From NCBI RefSeq assembly GCF_004331695.1, contig NZ_SJSL01000001.1, positions 1,116,001-1,180,000 of the forward strand: a DNA stretch of 64,000 nt, given 5' to 3'. Position 1 is the first letter of the stretch. Each line of letters begins with the position of its first letter. The stretch comes from Pedobacter psychroterrae (lineage in GTDB: Bacteria > Bacteroidota > Bacteroidia > Sphingobacteriales > Sphingobacteriaceae). A program made the position numbers and the translations under genes. Below the pieces are notes generated by a model. The model did not search any database. It was not told where the DNA came from and worked only from the letters and a program-made list of their open reading frames with translations. This document shows, piece by piece, positions 34,262-41,941 of this stretch.

Positions 34262-35005
34262 TTATTTGGTTTTATTTCTATCAACATAACCAAACACTTT
34301 TTGAAGCAGTGTAGTTGTTCTGGCACCCAGGTTGTCCCTGATCAGGAGTTCCTGCTGAGCCACCTGGATAAACATCCCATCTATTGCTTTTTGAGCTACA
34401 TAATTGGAGAGGTCTGTTGATACCGGCTTCACCAAAGGGATCTTATTGTATTGATTCGCCGCGTCGCCCCAGTACTTAGTAGCTCCTACCTTACTCAGGC
34501 TATTTGAGATCACAGGTCTAAACTTCTCTATAAGCTGTGCAGTGGTTACCCTTTTAAAATATTCTGTTGCTGCGTCTTTATTTCCGAAAAGTATATTTGT
34601 AGCATCGGCAATGGTCATTTGCTTAATGGCCGAAAGGAAAATTGGCTTTGCCTCCTTTGCCGCGTCTTCAGCAGCACGATTGATGCTCAGGATCACATTG
34701 TCTGCCAGAGAGCCTAAGCCGATAGTCCGCAATGTTTTCTCCACTTTTTGCGCCTCCGGCGGGAAAAATATCTTAACGGCCAGGTTTCCTAAAAAGCCAT
34801 CTTTTGCCGACAACTGATCTGCACCTCTTGAAGTTCCTAATTCCAGCGCCTGTTTTATACCCAGACCCATTTCTAATGCGGTAGGATTTCCACCCGCCGG
34901 TAGCTGCTTTATAATGTTTCCCAGCTGTGACTGAGTTTGTACATCACAACTGTTGAACGATATTGATATAATTGCAAGAAAGTAAATAAAATTAATTTTT
35001 TTCAT
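34262..35005 (-). CDS. DUF4197 lipoprotein
   Basis: The 247-residue protein has a lipoprotein signal (lipobox FNSC, Cys20) and matches what I recall as DUF4197: helical, with LEMGLGIKQALELGTSRGADQLSAKDGF and repeating amphipathic helices. DUF4197 has no known activity; it is widespread in Proteobacteria and Bacteroidota. The ATG overlaps the end of the VWA gene by 14 bp, so the two are co-expressed. It is 44 bp upstream of the DEAD-box gene. Confidence 0.82.
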   Translation of the reverse strand: MKKINFIYFLAIISISFNSCDVQTQSQLGNIIKQLPAGGNPTALEMGLGIKQALELGTSRGADQLSAKDGFLGNLAVKIFFPPEAQKVEKTLRTIGLGSLADNVILSINRAAEDAAKEAKPIFLSAIKQMTIADATNILFGNKDAATEYFKRVTTAQLIEKFRPVISNSLSKVGATKYWGDAANQYNKIPLVKPVSTDLSNYVAQKAIDGMFIQVAQQELLIRDNLGARTTTLLQKVFGYVDRNKTK

Positions 35006-36965
35006 TTAATGGGATCTTTTCATTCATGCCCAGCAAATCTTTGGCCAGTAATTTTGCAGACTTCGCTAATTTAACGAATTCGGCACGATATCCCTCATCA
35101 TCTTTTCCGGTGGCTTTTTGCGCAGTACTGATTACATTGTCAAAACTTGCGTTTTGTTTGTATGCAGATTGCCTCAGCAGCATCCCAAATTCTGCAACAG
35201 CAGCGCTGAACCTGAAGTTGTCACTGGTGTTGCCAAACGGAACGGCAGTGTCAATTACTGCCTGCGTTATTAGTTTGCTTACATTTTCATCTGGCTTTTT
35301 GTACCTAAGCTTTACCGTCATCAGCTCTTTGCTGTTTTTCAGCAAAACAGCAGGTTTTGAATCAACCTGATATTTAAGCTCATCTACACTTCCGGCAAAA
35401 GTGCTTTTTACACCCACCGGAATTATTTCGTACAAAGCGGTTACGGTATGTCCAGCGCCAAGTTCACCTGCATCTTTCTGGTCATTGTTGAAATCTTTGG
35501 CCGTTAACACGCGGTTTTCGTATCCTATCAGTCGGTAGGCTTGGGTTTTTGCCGGATTAAATTCTACCTGTAGCTTCACATCCTTTGCTATTGTAAATAG
35601 CGTTCCGCCAAACTCATTGATCAGTATTTTTCTCGCTTCACTGATATTGTCAATATATGCATAGTTTCCATTGCCTTTATTGGCAAGGGTCTCCATTTTG
35701 CTGTCTTTATAATTTCCCATTCCAAAGCCCAGAGCAGTTAAGAATATTCCGCTTTTTCTTTTCTGTTCTATTAAGGTTTGCATGTCTTTGTCGCTTGAAA
35801 TTCCGACATTAAAATCACCATCTGTAGCCAGAATTACCCTGTTATTTCCGTCTTTGATGAAATTTTCAGCGGCTACTTTATACGCCAGTTCAATACCTTG
35901 GCCTCCTGCAGTTGATCCACCCGCACTTAATTTGTTCAATGCTTCTTTTATCCGGATCTTTTGATCTCCCGGGGTAGAGGGTAGTACCAGACCTGCCTGT
36001 CCTGCATAGACCACAATAGCCACTTTATCTGCCGGTCTCAACTGCTCAGTGAGCAGCTTAAATGAAGATACCAGCAAGGGAAGTTTATTGGCCTGATTCA
36101 TGGATCCCGATACATCTATTAGAAATACCAGATTGGACGCAGGCAGTTTGTCCGTAGGGATTTTTCTGCCTTGCAGCCCAATCTTTACCAGTTTATGGTT
36201 GGTATTCCATGGAGCGCTTGAAATTTCTGTAGTGATACTTATGGGCTCTTTCCCTGTAGGCTGGGCATATTTGTAATCAAAGTAATTGATCATTTCTTCA
36301 ATCCTCACGGCATCCGCAGGTGGTAAGTTCCCATTGTTGATAAATCTGCGTACGTTGCTGTATGATGCGGCATCAACGTCGATAGAGAACGTAGACAGTG
36401 GATTTTTTAATGAAGTTTTAAATGTGTTTTCTTCAATAGAAGAATAAGCCTCGCTAGAAGGTTCAGTTCCGGAGGAAGGAAAACCTGTAGAATTTTGAAT
36501 GTTCAACCCTGCTACCTTTCCCTGCAACAACTGTCCGACATTTGACACAGGAGCATCAGCTACCTCTTTGCCGGTGACAATAAATGAACTCCCGGTAGTT
36601 ACTTCTCTTGTTCTTTTCTGATAACCACGGATCACTACTTCGTCCATTGTGCTCTTGTCTTCTTCCATTTGAATGTTCATCACGGAAGAAGTTATCTTTA
36701 CCCTTACAGTCTTATAACTCACGTAAGAGAAAATAAGTTCCTGGGCATCGTTACCTACTTTTACACTGTACTTGCCTTTTGCGTCCGTAGTGCTCAACCC
36801 ATTTGGTTTATTGTCCTTTTTAACAACATAGATATTCGCTCCCGGGATCGGAGCGCCGGAGACTTTATCAGTGACAATTCCTGAAATGGATCTTTCCCGG
36901 TTATTTGAGGTTCTGAAACCTGAGGACAGAATAGCTACAAATAGTAGTAACAATAATTTTTTCAT
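34992..36965 (-). CDS. VWA-domain protein (YfbK-like) with carboxypeptidase-regulatory domain and TonB-plug-like segment
   Basis: The 657-residue exported protein starts at ATG 36965, directly at a signal peptide (MKKLLLLLFVAILSSG). Its domains are a CarboxypepD_reg-like domain (about 25-100), a short TonB-plug-like segment (about 103-158) similar to SusC plugs but with no barrel, a YfbK N-domain (185-245, LSTFSIDVDAASYSNVRRF), and a VWA domain with MIDAS DVSGS (284-288). A C-terminal YfbK-type domain follows. VWA domains bind ligands through a divalent metal. It is divergent from the ECF sigma gene and shares a near-identical patch with the anti-sigma-like protein. Confidence 0.87.
   Translation of the reverse strand: MKKLLLLLFVAILSSGFRTSNNRERSISGIVTDKVSGAPIPGANIYVVKKDNKPNGLSTTDAKGKYSVKVGNDAQELIFSYVSYKTVRVKITSSVMNIQMEEDKSTMDEVVIRGYQKRTREVTTGSSFIVTGKEVADAPVSNVGQLLQGKVAGLNIQNSTGFPSSGTEPSSEAYSSIEENTFKTSLKNPLSTFSIDVDAASYSNVRRFINNGNLPPADAVRIEEMINYFDYKYAQPTGKEPISITTEISSAPWNTNHKLVKIGLQGRKIPTDKLPASNLVFLIDVSGSMNQANKLPLLVSSFKLLTEQLRPADKVAIVVYAGQAGLVLPSTPGDQKIRIKEALNKLSAGGSTAGGQGIELAYKVAAENFIKDGNNRVILATDGDFNVGISSDKDMQTLIEQKRKSGIFLTALGFGMGNYKDSKMETLANKGNGNYAYIDNISEARKILINEFGGTLFTIAKDVKLQVEFNPAKTQAYRLIGYENRVLTAKDFNNDQKDAGELGAGHTVTALYEIIPVGVKSTFAGSVDELKYQVDSKPAVLLKNSKELMTVKLRYKKPDENVSKLITQAVIDTAVPFGNTSDNFRFSAAVAEFGMLLRQSAYKQNASFDNVISTAQKATGKDDEGYRAEFVKLAKSAKLLAKDLLGMNEKIPLNEKN
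36492..36659 (-). repeat. Inverted repeat copy A (in the VWA gene)
   Basis: Encodes 56 residues from DKSTMDEVVIRGYQ to GLNIQN. It differs from copy B at 38455-38622 at 10 of 168 positions by hand count, in opposite orientation and in the same codon frame. Protein differences are Thr/Ser, Glu/Lys, Ala/Val and Gly/Glu. Confidence 0.85.
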
Positions 36966-37037
36966 CTCTATGTAATTTGTTAACAGGATGTACACTTTGT
37001 AGAATTTCCATAACAGTGTCAAAAAATATTTTTATAC

Positions 37038-37643
37038 TTGGATAATAATGTCTCAAAAGCACCCTTGAAGTTTATAAAGAATAATACCCGTATTGACGAG
37101 CAGGACGATGCCAGCCTGATCAGCCGCTACAAATCAAGTGGTAGTCTGGAGGTATTGGGTACGCTTTATAATAAATACATGCACCTGGTATTTGGGGTAT
37201 GTCTTAACTACCTGAAGGATGAAGAACAGAGCAAGGATGCGGTGATGCAGATCTTTGAAGAGCTTGTTGTAAAGTTGAAAGTTCACGAAGTCCAGAATTT
37301 TAAAAGCTGGCTGCATGTACTTGCCCGCAACCACTGTTTGATGGCGATCCGCAAAAATTCGCGACATGAAACGGTTTCAATAGAAGATACTTTTGTGGAA
37401 AACACAGAATTTGTGCATCTTGATGTAGATGATACAAAGGAGAATAAACTCACCGTTATGGAAAAGTGCATGGAGACACTACCTGAGGAGCAACGGATCA
37501 GCGTAGATTTGTTTTATTTGCAGGAAAAGTGCTATAAGGAAGTGGCAAATATCACAGGTTATGATATGTTGAAGGTAAAGAGCTACATACAGAACGGAAA
37601 GAGGAACTTAAAAATTTGTATAGAGAAGAACAGTGGTGAATAA
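37038..37643 (+). CDS. ECF-type RNA polymerase sigma factor
   Basis: The protein has 201 residues from TTG 37038; no ATG is in frame before the core, and TTG 37065 is an alternative. Region 2 (about 35-100, YNKYMHLVFGVCLNYLKDEEQSKDAVMQIFEEL) and region 4 (about 135-195, LPEEQRISVDLFYLQEKCYKEVANITG) are both visible, with the usual ECF length. It redirects RNA polymerase to target promoters. Its stop overlaps the start of the anti-sigma-like gene by 8-11 bp, indicating translational coupling, the classic arrangement for a sigma/anti-sigma pair. Confidence 0.88.
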   Translation: MDNNVSKAPLKFIKNNTRIDEQDDASLISRYKSSGSLEVLGTLYNKYMHLVFGVCLNYLKDEEQSKDAVMQIFEELVVKLKVHEVQNFKSWLHVLARNHCLMAIRKNSRHETVSIEDTFVENTEFVHLDVDDTKENKLTVMEKCMETLPEEQRISVDLFYLQEKCYKEVANITGYDMLKVKSYIQNGKRNLKICIEKNSGE

Positions 37644-38886
37644 GGATTGGTTAGATATAGACGTATTAGAAGATTACCTTGATGGTAAGCTGGATGCCAA
37701 GTCGATGAACCGGGTGGAACGCGCTGCCTTGGAAGATCCTTTTGTTGCCGAAGCCCTTGCCGGCCTGAGTATGTCTCCCAAACGTTCATTAGCCTCTTTG
37801 TCTTTACTTCAAAAGCAGCTTCAGCAACGTGTTACTGAACAGCAGTATGTCAAAAAGAAGACTGTAATTACCTGGCAAAGACTAAGTATCGCCGCTACGG
37901 CAGCGGTATTATTCATCTCGATAGGCATTATATTCTGGATGAAGCAGGTCAATTATCAGCAGACCGGGGACAATCAGTCTAAAAAGGTGGATGTAGTGAT
38001 TGCACCCAAGGTCAAAGCAACAGAACCTGTAAAACCTGTGCCCGAGTTAATCCCTCCGATGGCCTCAGATGAGGTCGCGATGAATACCAAAGCCAAAACC
38101 AGGACAATGAAAGCAAGGGTAAACGAGCCTTCAGCATTATCAGAACAGAAAGCCGTATTAATGGAGGTAGCCGTTTCTGCCAGCCCTTATTCCTCATCCC
38201 TTGTTATTGGTAATTCAATTAGAGGAAAGGTTACAGATGAAACTACAGGGGAACCAATTGTAGGGGCTAATATCTATAAGATGAATGCTGATGGAACTTA
38301 CAGGGGAATTGGCGCTACGGATCAGGCGGGTGAATTTAACATTAAGGTAGATAGTTTGACGAAAGAACAGGAGATAATTGTAAGTTATGTATCCTATACA
38401 ACAAAAAGAATAACTGTAAAGCCGAACGAACTTCTGGCAGTCGCGTTGCATGAAGACAAGAGCACTATGGACGAAGTAGTGATCCGCGGTTATCAGAAAA
38501 GAACAAGAGAAGTAACTACCGGCAGTTCATTTATTGTCTCCGGCAAAAAGGTAGCTGATGTTCCTGTGTCAAATGTCGAACAGTTGTTGCAGGGAAAGGT
38601 AGCGGGGCTGAATATTCAAAATAACGTCAATGCCGAACCAACCATTGGCTGGGAGAAATACAGGGAATATCTGATCAAAGAAAATCGTTTCAATAAGGAA
38701 ACAAAACCTGAGCAAACCGCTGAATATCTTTTTGTCATCAAGAAAGGAAGACCCGTAAATATTAGTGTCGCGAAAGGCATTTCAAAAAAATACGACAAAG
38801 AGGCCATTCGTTTAATAAAGAAAGGGTCGGACTGGAAATTATCCGATCCGACCCTTTCTGAAGTAAGTGTCGTGCTAAAATTCTAA
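37633..38886 (+). CDS. Membrane anti-sigma-like protein with carboxypeptidase-regulatory, plug-like and TonB C-terminal domains
   Basis: The 417-residue protein starts at a GTG (37633, or 37636). A cytoplasmic N-region of about 80 residues (IDVLEDYLDGKLDAKSM...) resembles sigma-binding regions of anti-sigma factors. One membrane segment (84-103) leads to a periplasmic part: a low-complexity linker, CarboxypepD_reg-like domain (196-272), plug-like segment (275-330), and a TonB_C-like domain (about 340-417, EYLFVIKKGRPVNISVAKGI). That architecture is like an inner-membrane signalling or TonB-like protein and would receive a signal in the periplasm. The overlap with the sigma gene supports a regulatory role; the exact function is inferred. 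Confidence 0.75.
   Translation: MVNKDWLDIDVLEDYLDGKLDAKSMNRVERAALEDPFVAEALAGLSMSPKRSLASLSLLQKQLQQRVTEQQYVKKKTVITWQRLSIAATAAVLFISIGIIFWMKQVNYQQTGDNQSKKVDVVIAPKVKATEPVKPVPELIPPMASDEVAMNTKAKTRTMKARVNEPSALSEQKAVLMEVAVSASPYSSSLVIGNSIRGKVTDETTGEPIVGANIYKMNADGTYRGIGATDQAGEFNIKVDSLTKEQEIIVSYVSYTTKRITVKPNELLAVALHEDKSTMDEVVIRGYQKRTREVTTGSSFIVSGKKVADVPVSNVEQLLQGKVAGLNIQNNVNAEPTIGWEKYREYLIKENRFNKETKPEQTAEYLFVIKKGRPVNISVAKGISKKYDKEAIRLIKKGSDWKLSDPTLSEVSVVLKF
38455..38622 (+). repeat. Inverted repeat copy B (in the anti-sigma-like gene)
   Basis: Partner of copy A at 36492-36659. The two bracket about 1.8 kb that contains the sigma gene, the divergent promoter region, and the 5' parts of both repeat-carrying genes. 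Flanking protein sequence is clearly less similar than the patch itself. Confidence 0.85.
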
Positions 38887-40175
38887 AGAAATAAACTAAG
38901 AATAGCGTAGATAATTGCTGCGAGTGCTGCTGAGACGGGGATGGTGAGCACCCATGCCCATATCAGTTTAACTGTTACGCCCCATTTTACTGCTGAAGTC
39001 CCTTTAGTCAGACCGGAGCCGATAATGGATCCGGTAATGGTATGTGTAGTACTTACCGGAATTCTCAGATGCTCTGTAAAATACAAGGTCAAAGCACCAG
39101 CTGTTTCAGCAGTTACGCCTTCAAACGGAGTTACTTTCGTGATTTTAGATCCCATGGTTTTCACGATTTTCCAGCCACCGCTTAATGTACCAATGGCAAT
39201 TGCACTATAACAGGCCAAAGGAATCCATGTAGGCATGTGTTCCGGAGTTTCATTGCCAAACGCGTCTTTTGAGGGTAGTACTACCCGCAGCCATTCCGGC
39301 ATGTCGGCCAGGTTGGCTCCCGATTGGTGAATATACACCACTACCGCTGCTGCGATAATACCCATCACTTTCTGAGAATCGTTCCCTCCATGACCAAGGC
39401 TAAAGGCGGCGGATGATAGCAGCTGCATTTTCTTCAACCATTTAGTAGATTGATGATGGCTGAGATAGCTAAATATCAAACAAAATGAGCTGATAGAAAG
39501 TATAATGAAGGCTATTAAAAACCACTTGATGTTATGAGATTCAAATGCGACGCTCCAGAAATGAGAATCAAAACGGGGTTTGTGTATCTTTTCGTAAGGA
39601 ATCATTTGTAAATACACAAAAACGATGGTGGCAATCATCAAAGTCAGCGTGAATATTTTAGGCCCAATACTTTTTCTTGAGGAATGCAATAACCAAATAG
39701 AAATGCAATAAGATACGATTGCACCGATCAGCGGAGCCAATACAATGAAGCCGATAATGACTAAAACGCCGCTTGGCAGTTCCCCTGCTTTACCTTCTTT
39801 ATACCAGTTTACCACATCCAGGCCAGCATGTGCAATTGCCGCACCTGCAAAACCGCCGATGAGTGTATGGGAAGAACTGGAAGGAATGCCGAACCACCAG
39901 GTCAGTAGGTTCCAGATGATTGCAGCGATTACCCCCGCCAATATTACAACCAGGTTGATTTCCATCGTATTGGCTGTTTTTGCTACGGTATCAGCCACAC
40001 CAAAACCAAATACCCAGTACGCCAAGAAGTTGAAAAACGCCGCCCATATTACTGCCTGAAACGGAGACAGTACTTTTGTAGCCACTACGGTTGCAATTGC
40101 ATTAGCCGCATCGTGAAAACCATTGATATAATCAAATACGAGCGCTAAAGCTATAATTGTAAGAAGTAAGGTCAT
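38883..40175 (-). CDS. PiT-family inorganic phosphate transporter
   Basis: The 430-residue permease has about 10-12 membrane segments and the PiT signature in both halves: GFHDAANAIATVVATKVL near the N-terminus and PVSTTHTITGSIIGSG near the C-terminus (the second repeat). It probably imports metal-phosphate with protons through the inner membrane. Length is short of E. coli PitA (499) because the central loop is small, which is normal for Bacteroidota. The DUF47 partner gene lies 8 bp upstream in the same operon. Its stop overlaps the anti-sigma-like gene stop by 4 bp. Confidence 0.93.
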   Translation of the reverse strand: MTLLLTIIALALVFDYINGFHDAANAIATVVATKVLSPFQAVIWAAFFNFLAYWVFGFGVADTVAKTANTMEINLVVILAGVIAAIIWNLLTWWFGIPSSSSHTLIGGFAGAAIAHAGLDVVNWYKEGKAGELPSGVLVIIGFIVLAPLIGAIVSYCISIWLLHSSRKSIGPKIFTLTLMIATIVFVYLQMIPYEKIHKPRFDSHFWSVAFESHNIKWFLIAFIILSISSFCLIFSYLSHHQSTKWLKKMQLLSSAAFSLGHGGNDSQKVMGIIAAAVVVYIHQSGANLADMPEWLRVVLPSKDAFGNETPEHMPTWIPLACYSAIAIGTLSGGWKIVKTMGSKITKVTPFEGVTAETAGALTLYFTEHLRIPVSTTHTITGSIIGSGLTKGTSAVKWGVTVKLIWAWVLTIPVSAALAAIIYAILSLFL

Positions 40176-40183
40176 AATAAATC

Positions 40184-40825
40184 TTATGCGTTTTTAACCA
40201 AGATGGACTCCAGTACATTTGCCGCATCTTCACATTTATCAGTAGCCATTTCTAACGTCTGCAATACTTCTTTCTGTCTGATTAGCTCAATGGCGTTGGT
40301 TTCAAATTCAAACAGGCGGGCAATAGCTAGATTGCACACATAGTCGGCCTGATTCTCACCACTGTTGATTTTAATGCAAGCATCTGCAATCACCCTGATG
40401 TTTTTAAAACTTCTCAATTCCTTGATGGCTTTTTCAAGATCTGAGCACATTTCTACAAGGATCTCAGCAAGTTTGATCATCGCATCACCTATTTGGGTAA
40501 TATTATAAAGCTCAATATTACTTGCCGATGCATGTATGTAATCTGCGATGTCATCTACAGCACTTGCAAGCGCGTGGATATCTTCTCTATCAAAAGGAGT
40601 GATGAAGTTCTTACTAAGTTCGAGGAAAATTGAATGGGTGATATCGTCACCTACATGCTCCAGGCGTTCGATTTCTTTCGTGTATTCTTTTCTTTTCTCA
40701 AGGTCGGTTGTTGATAAAGCAAGCAGCAGAACTTCTGAGATTTCCTTTACATTGCTTCCTGCCTGTTCGAACAAGGGTTGAAATTTTTTGTCCTGAGGAG
40801 TGAAGAACTTAAAAATACTATTCAT
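40184..40825 (-). CDS. DUF47 / PhoU-like phosphate-transport regulator
   Basis: The 213-residue protein is an all-alpha PhoU-related protein (DUF47, TIGR00153) with ERLEHVGDDITHSIFLELSKNF and the HALASAVDDIADYIHASASNIEL helix, the family's metal-binding ExxxD-type positions. DUF47 proteins are commonly encoded directly before pit genes and adjust or enable PiT transport. It sits 8 bp upstream of the pit gene as the first gene of the operon. A Pho-box-like operator overlies its promoter. Confidence 0.9.
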   Translation of the reverse strand: MNSIFKFFTPQDKKFQPLFEQAGSNVKEISEVLLLALSTTDLEKRKEYTKEIERLEHVGDDITHSIFLELSKNFITPFDREDIHALASAVDDIADYIHASASNIELYNITQIGDAMIKLAEILVEMCSDLEKAIKELRSFKNIRVIADACIKINSGENQADYVCNLAIARLFEFETNAIELIRQKEVLQTLEMATDKCEDAANVLESILVKNA

Positions 40826-40849: not shown

Positions 40850-40857
40850 CAAAAGTA
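40850..40857 (-). promoter_or_regulatory. -7 box of the DUF47-pit operon
   Basis: Minus-strand TACTTTTG fits TAnnTTTG and lies 25 nt before the ATG. The -33 region is occupied by the Pho-box-like repeats. Confidence 0.5.
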
Positions 40858-40862
40858 TGAGT

Positions 40863-40884
40863 GTAATGTTAAGTTAATGTTAAG
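40863..40884 (-). promoter_or_regulatory. Pho-box-like operator (two 11-bp direct repeats)
   Basis: On the minus strand the two contiguous 11-mers are CTTAACATTAA and CTTAACATTAC. Tandem 11-bp direct repeats are the known format of PhoB-type binding sites, and the CTTAAC core resembles the cyanobacterial Pho box. They end 5 nt before the -7 box, in place of a -33 element, upstream of phosphate-transport genes. Confidence 0.6.
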
Positions 40885-40915: not shown

Positions 40916-41941
40916 CTATCCGAGTTTTTCAAGTGTGAATGCAAATGTAGTGCCTATCTGAAGGGTACTCCTCACAGAAATAATCTGTTGATGTGCTTCT
41001 AATATGTGCTTTACTATTGCCAGGCCAAGCCCCGTACCTCCTTCTTCCCTTGACCTGTGCGTATCAATTCTATAAAATCTCTCAAACAGACGGGGCAGGT
41101 GTTTTTCTTCTATTCCGATTCCGTCATCGGTTACTTCTATCAGGTACTGGTCATGCAGTTCGAAAATTTTTATGGCTGTTGATCCGTTCGTCCTGCCATA
41201 TTTCAATGAGTTTTGTATCAGGTTGATCATTACCTGCCGGATTTTTTCCCTGTCTGCTCTTACATATGCCGGAGAAGTGTACTTCTCTTTGAACGACAGT
41301 TTTATATTTCTCACTCTGGCACTGTCTTCCAGGTTATCCATTACCTCTTTTGTCAGCAAAACAAAATCAAATTTTTGATAATTGATAGGGATCTCCCCCG
41401 ATTCCAGTTTAGAAATAGAATCAAGATCATTGATCAGGTAGCTTAGCCGTTCTACATTTGTGGCGGCTTTCTTTAAGAATTTATTTGCCGTTTCCGGGTC
41501 ATCAACCATGCATTCCTGTAAAGTATCAATGTATCCCTGTACTGCAAAAAGAGGTGTTTTGAACTCATGGGACACATTTGAAAGAAATTCACGTCTGAAC
41601 TGTTCCTGTTTTTTTAATACATCGATCTCGCGTTTTTTTGCGCCAGCCCATTCTTTAACTTCCTGTTCGACATCATTGATCGGATCTGAGCTTACATATT
41701 CTCCCAAAGCATCTTTAAGGTCTTTACCCAATTTTAAATTATGAATCAGCTTATAAATGAGTACGATCTTGGAATAAATATATTTCTGCAGTAAATAATA
41801 GAAAACCACATAACTAATGGCAAAAGATACTCCAAAGGAGATCATCAGGTCATACCAGCTTTGTTGAAAATAAAAATTTACCAGACCAATCGCTATACCT
41901 ACAGCAAGCGCTGCAATTAAAACCAATACACTTAATTTCAT
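40916..41941 (-). CDS. PhoR-like sensor histidine kinase
   Basis: The 341-residue kinase has two N-terminal membrane segments (about 5-23 and 32-51) with a very short periplasmic loop, then a linker, a HisKA domain with the H-box SNVSHEFKTPL (His125), and an HATPase domain (NLIQNSLKYG, DDGIGIEEKHL, GGTGLGLAIVKHIL). This is the PhoR pattern, which senses phosphate indirectly through PiT/Pst complexes. It lies 90 bp upstream of the DUF47-pit operon on the same strand, supporting a phosphate role. No response regulator is adjacent on either side, so the regulator is elsewhere. Confidence 0.85.
   Translation of the reverse strand: MKLSVLVLIAALAVGIAIGLVNFYFQQSWYDLMISFGVSFAISYVVFYYLLQKYIYSKIVLIYKLIHNLKLGKDLKDALGEYVSSDPINDVEQEVKEWAGAKKREIDVLKKQEQFRREFLSNVSHEFKTPLFAVQGYIDTLQECMVDDPETANKFLKKAATNVERLSYLINDLDSISKLESGEIPINYQKFDFVLLTKEVMDNLEDSARVRNIKLSFKEKYTSPAYVRADREKIRQVMINLIQNSLKYGRTNGSTAIKIFELHDQYLIEVTDDGIGIEEKHLPRLFERFYRIDTHRSREEGGTGLGLAIVKHILEAHQQIISVRSTLQIGTTFAFTLEKLG

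Follow-up and report, generated by a model that had tools for sequence, protein, structure and literature searches.

Within the phylum Bacteroidota, one of the closest described systems to the locus studied here is PhoP of Riemerella anatipestifer, for which DAP-seq and EMSA provided a binding motif with core TTTAACA and which is reported to be upregulated in phosphate starvation (PMC9603813). In Flavobacterium johnsoniae, the response to phosphate depletion has PhoX and PhoBR among its members and comprises a phosphate-depletion-induced PhoBR operon (PMC8115612). According to the same source, plant-associated Bacteroidota matter in soil phosphorus mobilisation, which makes the underlying wiring worth testing. 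With regard to regulatory RNAs, the FopS small RNAs in Bacteroides thetaiotaomicron act on the translation start of SusC-like mRNAs and thereby repress them (PMC11697453). Phosphate-linked small RNAs are already known as a kind, e.g., from Sinorhizobium meliloti, for which candidate small RNAs that carry a predicted PhoB site or respond to phosphate are given (PMC2573895). Statements on these systems, here and below, refer to the available parts of the respective accounts.

Here, we study a tandem repeat in front of the DUF47-pit operon of Pedobacter psychroterrae, found within a 64-kb stretch of DNA that was analysed as a whole (the window). Judging from sequence, we consider it quite likely that the repeats are a PhoB-like operator, which in low phosphate would activate DUF47-pit together with a phosphate regulon and a small RNA that lowers SusC-type importers.

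The operator-promoter unit in front of DUF47-pit

The features of the locus are as follows (positions within the window).

40878..40883, minus strand: upstream operator half-site TTAACA, kept in 80 DUF47 loci (best 80 of 176)
40874-40884, minus strand: 11-mer CTTAACATTAA carrying the upstream half-site
40867..40872, minus strand: downstream operator half-site TTAACA, 11 nt in register after the first
40863-40873, minus strand: 11-mer CTTAACATTAC carrying the downstream half-site, at the place of the -33 element
40858-40862, minus strand: 5-nt spacer ACTCA between CTTAACATTAC and the -7 box
40850..40857, minus strand: -7 promoter box TACTTTTG (TAnnTTTG), with a constant 9-nt distance to the second TTAACA where the composite is exact
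40184..40825, minus strand: DUF47 (PhoU_div) gene, first after the promoter (PF01865, E 1.6e-25)
38883..40175, minus strand: Pit-type phosphate transporter gene, second gene (PF01384 (PHO4), E 2.8e-91)
40916..41941, minus strand: PhoR/PnpS-like sensor histidine kinase, upstream neighbour (HisKA + HATPase_c)

On the minus strand, CTTAACATTAA and CTTAACATTAC adjoin directly and are followed, after 5 nt, by TACTTTTG; the start codon of DUF47 (40825) is located 25 nt past the end of this -7 box. The positions of repeats and box put forward in the original prediction match the sequence base for base. It had also placed a phosphate-transport operon behind the motif, in agreement with the PHO4 match of the Pit gene, and a PhoR-like kinase just upstream, where the HisKA + HATPase_c gene indeed ends at 40916 on the minus strand.

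The arrangement is that of a Pho box, i.e., a tandem direct repeat with an 11-nt period and two half-sites, which takes the position of the upstream promoter element. In the -33/-7 promoters of Bacteroidota, the -33 element is marked by TTG. Among the 77 DUF47 loci with at most two mismatches (see below), 76 have no TTG 16-24 nt upstream of the -7 box. Given this and the fixed spacing to the -7 box, the earlier claim that the repeats replace the -33 element stands in this sense.

Elsewhere in the window, two divergent genes (34992-37022, minus strand; 37633-38886, plus strand) share a near-identical protein stretch (MDEVVIRGYQKRTREVTTGSSFIV...LLQGKVAGLNIQN) after their CarboxypepD_reg domains, and a sigma-70-type factor (37038-37643) adjoins both. 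The pair resembles a domain that was duplicated around a sigma/receptor-like cassette.

For composite searches, we used the pattern TTAACA-N5-TTAACA-N9-TANNTTTG; in the genus-wide search, the same pattern read backwards served as a control. The window contains one exact TTAACA-N5-TTAACA only, namely the DUF47-pit copy. When up to two mismatches are allowed, the bare repeat is seen 15 times compared to a mean of 12.5 in shuffles, that is, at chance level. What supports the site is thus its exactness, together with the attached -7 box and its conservation. The exact composite occurs once in the 5.1-Mb P. psychroterrae genome and is present in 142/145 genomes of the genus Pedobacter (132/132 good assemblies), while the control pattern shows a single match in all 145.

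Conservation was assessed by scanning the 330 bases upstream of DUF47 in 80 loci of relatives (best 80 of 176). The best composite match has 0/1/2/3 mismatches in 71/4/2/3 loci. When the last 250 upstream bases are shuffled, 3 mismatches are reached in 0.1% of trials and no trial goes below 3. Both TTAACA half-sites are retained in all three loci with 3 mismatches, two of which (L043 and L056) have the -7 box shifted by one base. In most of the 80 loci, about 20 nt separate the -7 box from the DUF47 gene, in others about 80-110 nt; the operator-promoter unit holds its inner spacing regardless. An extra TTAACA is located 7 nt further upstream in 34/76 DUF47 loci; it is absent in the window.

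Sites in the genome and within the class

Searching the whole P. psychroterrae genome for composite sites with at most 3 mismatches results in 32 sites (1/4/7/20 for 0/1/2/3 mismatches) compared to 15 for the control. To obtain expected numbers per mismatch class, the control count was spread over the classes by the number of possible words. At 0-1 mismatch, 5 sites are seen where about 0.04 are expected; for 2 mismatches the expectation is about 0.9. The 20 sites with 3 mismatches are near the control level and many of them are noise-like. Among the 30 composite sites with surroundings examined, 4 are inside genes, all of them in the 3-mismatch class.

The five best sites precede DUF47-pit, a PhoX phosphatase (PF05787, 5.5e-78), a TonB receptor that is clustered with a lipoprotein gene, and, at two places where no gene follows, the two copies of the small RNA described below. 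The seven sites with 2 mismatches are found at pstSCAB, at a TPR gene beside PhoX and at five places without visible phosphate link, such that pstSCAB is the only clear phosphate operon among them. Its PstC, PstA and PstB proteins score above the NCBIfam cut-offs, PstS below. Within the 3-mismatch class, the site of ppk1-ppx shows two perfect half-sites and an imperfect -7 box, and further sites belong to a metallophosphatase gene and to that of a glycerophosphodiesterase.

Along with the original prediction, it had been proposed to check the motif by searching the genome; this recovers sites at pstSCAB and PhoX, and the 0-1-mismatch sites exceed the control. The predicted phosphate-starvation operator with a readable regulon motif is supported at this level, with PhoX, pstSCAB, ppk1-ppx and the TonB receptor as putative members beside DUF47-pit.

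The pstSCAB operon is located at L218:5519-8845 (contig C9) and is without phoU. Classical PhoU (PF01895) has no match in the P. psychroterrae genome, and DUF47 may be its only PhoU-like protein. A doubt about the presence of a Pst system, raised by the missing PF01895, is ruled out by this phoU-less operon.

Within the class Bacteroidia, the exact composite was found in 12/295 genomes and the control in none. Six of the exact matches are outside the own family, three of which are at phosphate-type genes. The first is positioned 20 nt before PstS (303 bits, cut-off 206.6), the second has a kinase-like gene on one side and DUF47-Pit on the other (DUF47 4e-25; the kinase and the Pit gene were identified by eye), and the third precedes a lipoprotein sharing 41% identity with its counterpart in the own TonB-receptor cluster. 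The other three, i.e., two CarboxypepD_reg proteins and one SprB/PKD protein, are without obvious phosphate link. As a phylogenetic test, PhoX was considered as well; only 2/31 genomes carry it at E 1e-80, and the PhoX locus of the second genome (another family) has no composite site with at most 4 mismatches.

Two genomes from different genera of the same family of the class, which is not the own family, carry, 8-9 nt behind exact units, genes for small secreted proteins of the CarboxypepD_reg type with 113-115 aa (L321/L322). These are possibly a new phosphate-regulated protein.

A predicted small RNA and its putative targets

Outside the DUF47 loci, 20 exact sites from other genomes were inspected, 18 of which lead into a conserved stretch without sense gene. 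We predict this stretch to be a small RNA of about 76 nt. The family is not visible from the 64-kb window and would belong to the regulon. Its 5' part forms a hairpin with loop UUUGGUUA, followed by an unpaired linker GUUUAGG(U)UUAGUUGAUAA and, in the 3' part, a terminator hairpin around UGGAUG and then U. As regards a FopS-like identity, the RNA matches no described family in Rfam at gathering score, and the best matches by E-value are far below their curated scores. The P. psychroterrae copy contains no start-to-stop reading frame of note. The family is apparently undescribed.

A model built from 16 copies finds the small RNA in 138/145 genomes of the genus (129/132 good ones) with one to six copies each. 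Among 300 genomes of the order Sphingobacteriales, 113 match the model; five of these matches are outside the genus and weak (E 3e-4 to 9e-4). The respective features are as follows.

C1:1699322-1699401, plus strand: small RNA, own copy 1, model match directly behind a top-five operator site
C1:1347286-1347367, minus strand: small RNA, own copy 2, model match directly behind a top-five operator site
L101:11979-13184, also L168-L187 and L309: divergent secreted protein, one at a second small-RNA copy

The last of these is encoded in many genomes in divergent orientation to the small RNA; the protein is secreted, measures about 400 aa, carries the motif F-x-F-Y-x-x-T-F-N and matches nothing in Pfam or NCBIfam.

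In a set of 50 distinct copies, 9/12 pairs of the terminator stem show double changes, as judged from an alignment fitted to the model. In these copies, the first hairpin shows 98% pairing, with no double changes and no covariation; it is missed by RNAalifold and present in single-sequence folds of most copies tried.

Next, we studied the promoters of the small RNA. For 38 loci found by the model, the composite has 0/1/2/4 mismatches in 13/21/3/1 cases. Since seven of these loci belong to the training set of the model and another two were chosen via the pattern, we also give the numbers without these nine, where 28/29 show at most 2 mismatches. A second set was composed of 20 copies chosen outside the exact-pattern list plus own copy 2. 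Here, 1/2/3/4 mismatches are observed in 11/5/4/1 cases, with the operator-promoter unit at the identical position in 21/21. When the DNA upstream of the small RNA is shuffled, 3 mismatches are reached in 0.03% of trials, although the position was left free.

In 17/19 loci (the 18 conserved loci and own copy 1), the small RNA faces a converging OlsF-like gene, which ends just behind it; the one such protein scanned scores 427.9 bits (cut-off 620). The small RNA could accordingly act in cis, i.e., as an antisense or shared terminator for the converging OlsF-like gene, or for the divergent gene, as the close ending in 17/19 first-set loci would suggest. We hold this to be unlikely, given that neither P. 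psychroterrae copy has an OlsF-like neighbour, that L175 carries a different gene at the OlsF position, and that the five second-copy loci listed have other neighbours, while the loop and the linker are conserved.

To find candidate targets of a small RNA that acts in trans, the genome was searched for the complement of the linker. This results in 18 sites, two of which are the small-RNA genes themselves, compared to 20 for the control, i.e., no excess. Five of the other 16 sites are just upstream of a start codon; we therefore evaluated pairing with start regions (-40 to +12). For the linker and 422 genes, 7 reach -16 kcal/mol compared to a mean of 1.2 in shuffles (0/60), which is a modest excess. 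At -18 kcal/mol no excess is observed for these 422 genes, and the top genes have no common theme. In a second gene set, which includes 5 SusC genes, the linker favours SusC starts with p 0.0025.

The union set covers 40 stretches of the P. psychroterrae genome (794 kb) and one of 8 kb, with 590 genes, 11 of which are SusC-type. Here, the linker pairs with SusC starts at a mean of -11.9 kcal/mol vs. -8.6 kcal/mol for the others (p 1.5e-5, 11 SusC genes). Dinucleotide-shuffled SusC starts are as low in 0/300 cases, and shuffled linkers as extreme in 0/100. SusC starts are also favoured by the first loop (p 9.6e-5). Since 8/40 stretches hold a linker-complement site, some of these stretches having been chosen to include one, the sample leaned toward the SusC result. 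Without those eight, the reduced set has 477 genes with 7 SusC, and the linker effect is weaker but persists (p 0.002; shuffled starts 4/300, shuffled linkers 1/100), as does that of the first loop (p 0.00046; 0/300 and 0/100).

The terminator loop shows no SusC preference, neither in the union set (p 0.57) nor in the reduced set (p 0.64), so another contact is possible for it. The loop UGGAUG is near-invariant (UGGAUA in four second copies) on a stem that covaries, a combination unusual in a plain terminator, and may serve such a contact; in own copy 1 this part is located at about L101:13371-13400.

Overall, complementarity to SusC translation start regions, as known from FopS, is observed on small numbers. 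SusC-type mRNAs are thus predicted targets of the small RNA, which is a prediction and not proof of regulation; SusC starts may share complementary sequence for a different reason. The full circuit, i.e., that low phosphate induces the multi-copy small RNAs via the operator of DUF47-pit and thereby shuts down SusC-type importers, is put forward tentatively as one possible outcome.

Regulator, alternative readings and known systems

The best NCBIfam match of the kinase (40916-41941) is PnpS with 258.3 bits (cut-off 400), followed by PhoR with 237.1 (334.2), both below the cut-off. An orphan regulator on contig C13 (near 16.4 kb) matches PhoB best, with 223.7 bits, and misses the cut-off of 296.2. 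That is, neither kinase nor regulator reaches the curated family score of a PhoR-PhoB pair. The kinase is upstream of DUF47 in 75/80 loci (best 80 of 176). We furthermore searched 118 Bacteroidota genomes for the kinase and compared the neighbourhoods of the best 30 loci. Within the own family (4 loci including P. psychroterrae), a regulator adjoins the kinase in 0/4 loci and DUF47-Pit follows. Outside the own family, a response regulator adjoins the kinase homologue in 23/26 loci; of the remaining 3, two are without regulator and in one the kinase was missed by gene calling. For all 23 adjoining regulators, the closest P. psychroterrae regulator is the C13 orphan with 241-287 bits vs. at most 143 for the next, where seven of the eight P. 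psychroterrae proteins with OmpR-family DNA-binding domain were compared. Kinase and C13 orphan are best read, on these sequence comparisons, as a PhoR-PhoB pair whose genes are split apart in the own family. The gene of the orphan regulator itself has no composite site with at most 3 mismatches.

In the mechanism we propose, the kinase would sense low phosphate and phosphorylate the orphan PhoB-like regulator, which would bind the two 11-nt repeats head to tail at the place of the -33 element. The bound regulator would recruit RNA polymerase to the TAnnTTTG box and turn on DUF47-pit. The identical unit would drive PhoX, the TonB receptor, pstSCAB, probably ppk1-ppx, and the two small-RNA copies, and the RNA of about 76 nt would most likely pair with start regions of SusC-type mRNAs, lowering their translation. 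While the sequence itself shows the operator and its conservation, the genes that follow the sites, the conserved RNA gene and its promoter unit, and the complementarity in statistical terms, we infer the binding by the C13 regulator, activation as opposed to repression, the phosphate signal, and both the expression and the effect of the RNA.

With regard to the direction of control, the PhoB-like regulator might bind and repress DUF47-pit in starvation, such that uptake is left to pstSCAB. PhoB represses the pap-pit operon in Sinorhizobium meliloti, DUF47-Pit is of the low-affinity type with a Pst system also present in P. psychroterrae, and an operator that overlaps a promoter can repress. 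However, the unit at DUF47-pit has the same geometry as those at pstSCAB, PhoX and the small RNAs, and it is without the TTG -33 element for a promoter active unaided, which renders repression rather improbable.

Alternatively, the operator could belong to another OmpR-family regulator, e.g., of envelope stress, with the phosphate genes being incidental. The known sites of OmpR-family regulators are all tandem direct repeats, eight P. psychroterrae proteins share the DNA-binding domain, and several sites precede genes without phosphate link. We nevertheless judge this reading highly improbable, because in several families phosphate genes are found behind the best sites and because elsewhere the kinase pairs with a PhoB-like regulator and not with the others (seven of eight compared). 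Finally, a chance match within AT-rich intergenic DNA, for which one might cite that the bare repeat with two mismatches is no commoner in the window than in shuffles, has a negligible probability, being contradicted by the genus-wide exact composite, the conservation over 80 loci and the controls; the composite operator-promoter unit is not due to chance.

The operator, which we thus take as a probable PhoB-like activator site, is a Pho box in kind, and its half-site has a measured precedent in the phylum. The core of the Bacillus Pho box is close to TTAACA. With the boxes of Escherichia coli PhoB and Bacillus subtilis PhoP, as given in the available text, the operator shares the two 11-nt repeats that replace the upstream promoter element, while the E. 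coli core is CTGTCAT vs. TTAACA in P. psychroterrae (PMC4415409). Unlike the E. coli and Bacillus boxes, it is joined to the TAnnTTTG box of Bacteroidota.

The half-site TTAACA agrees with the TTTAACA core of R. anatipestifer PhoP, a likeness at the motif level. The available account of the latter mentions neither a tandem geometry tied to the -7 element, nor a site at DUF47-pit, nor a small RNA. PhoP-PhoR form one operon there, in contrast to separate genes in P. psychroterrae. The original prediction had drawn on cyanobacterial Pho boxes; the R. anatipestifer core, as far as described, is the closer precedent. In F. johnsoniae, the layout of the PhoBR operon resembles our TonB receptor-lipoprotein cluster, a likeness by layout; its account, in the part available, gives no operator and no small RNA (PMC8115612). 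The phosphate-induced small RNAs of S. meliloti have no evident PhoB site in the available text and are other RNAs of another phylum (PMC2573895). A literature search, with most subscription papers outside its coverage, returned neither a phosphate-linked Pedobacter small RNA nor this tandem operator.

A phosphate operator is proposed at base level for the promoter type peculiar to Bacteroidota; its regulon would be readable from sequence, and a probable kinase-regulator pair is named despite the genes lying far apart. Moreover, a conserved small-RNA family without Rfam entry would link the phosphate switch to mRNAs of nutrient importers. If true, one two-component system re-allocates the outer membrane, away from importing glycans and towards capturing phosphate, and the circuit is a phosphate-controlled counterpart of that of FopS. 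With the FopS RNAs, as far as their available account goes, the Pedobacter RNA shares paralogous short copies with a terminator hairpin, and an action on SusC that is shown there and predicted here. They differ in that FopS RNAs have canonical promoters and a single-stranded 5' end, whereas the Pedobacter RNA has a Pho-type promoter unit and a 5' hairpin.
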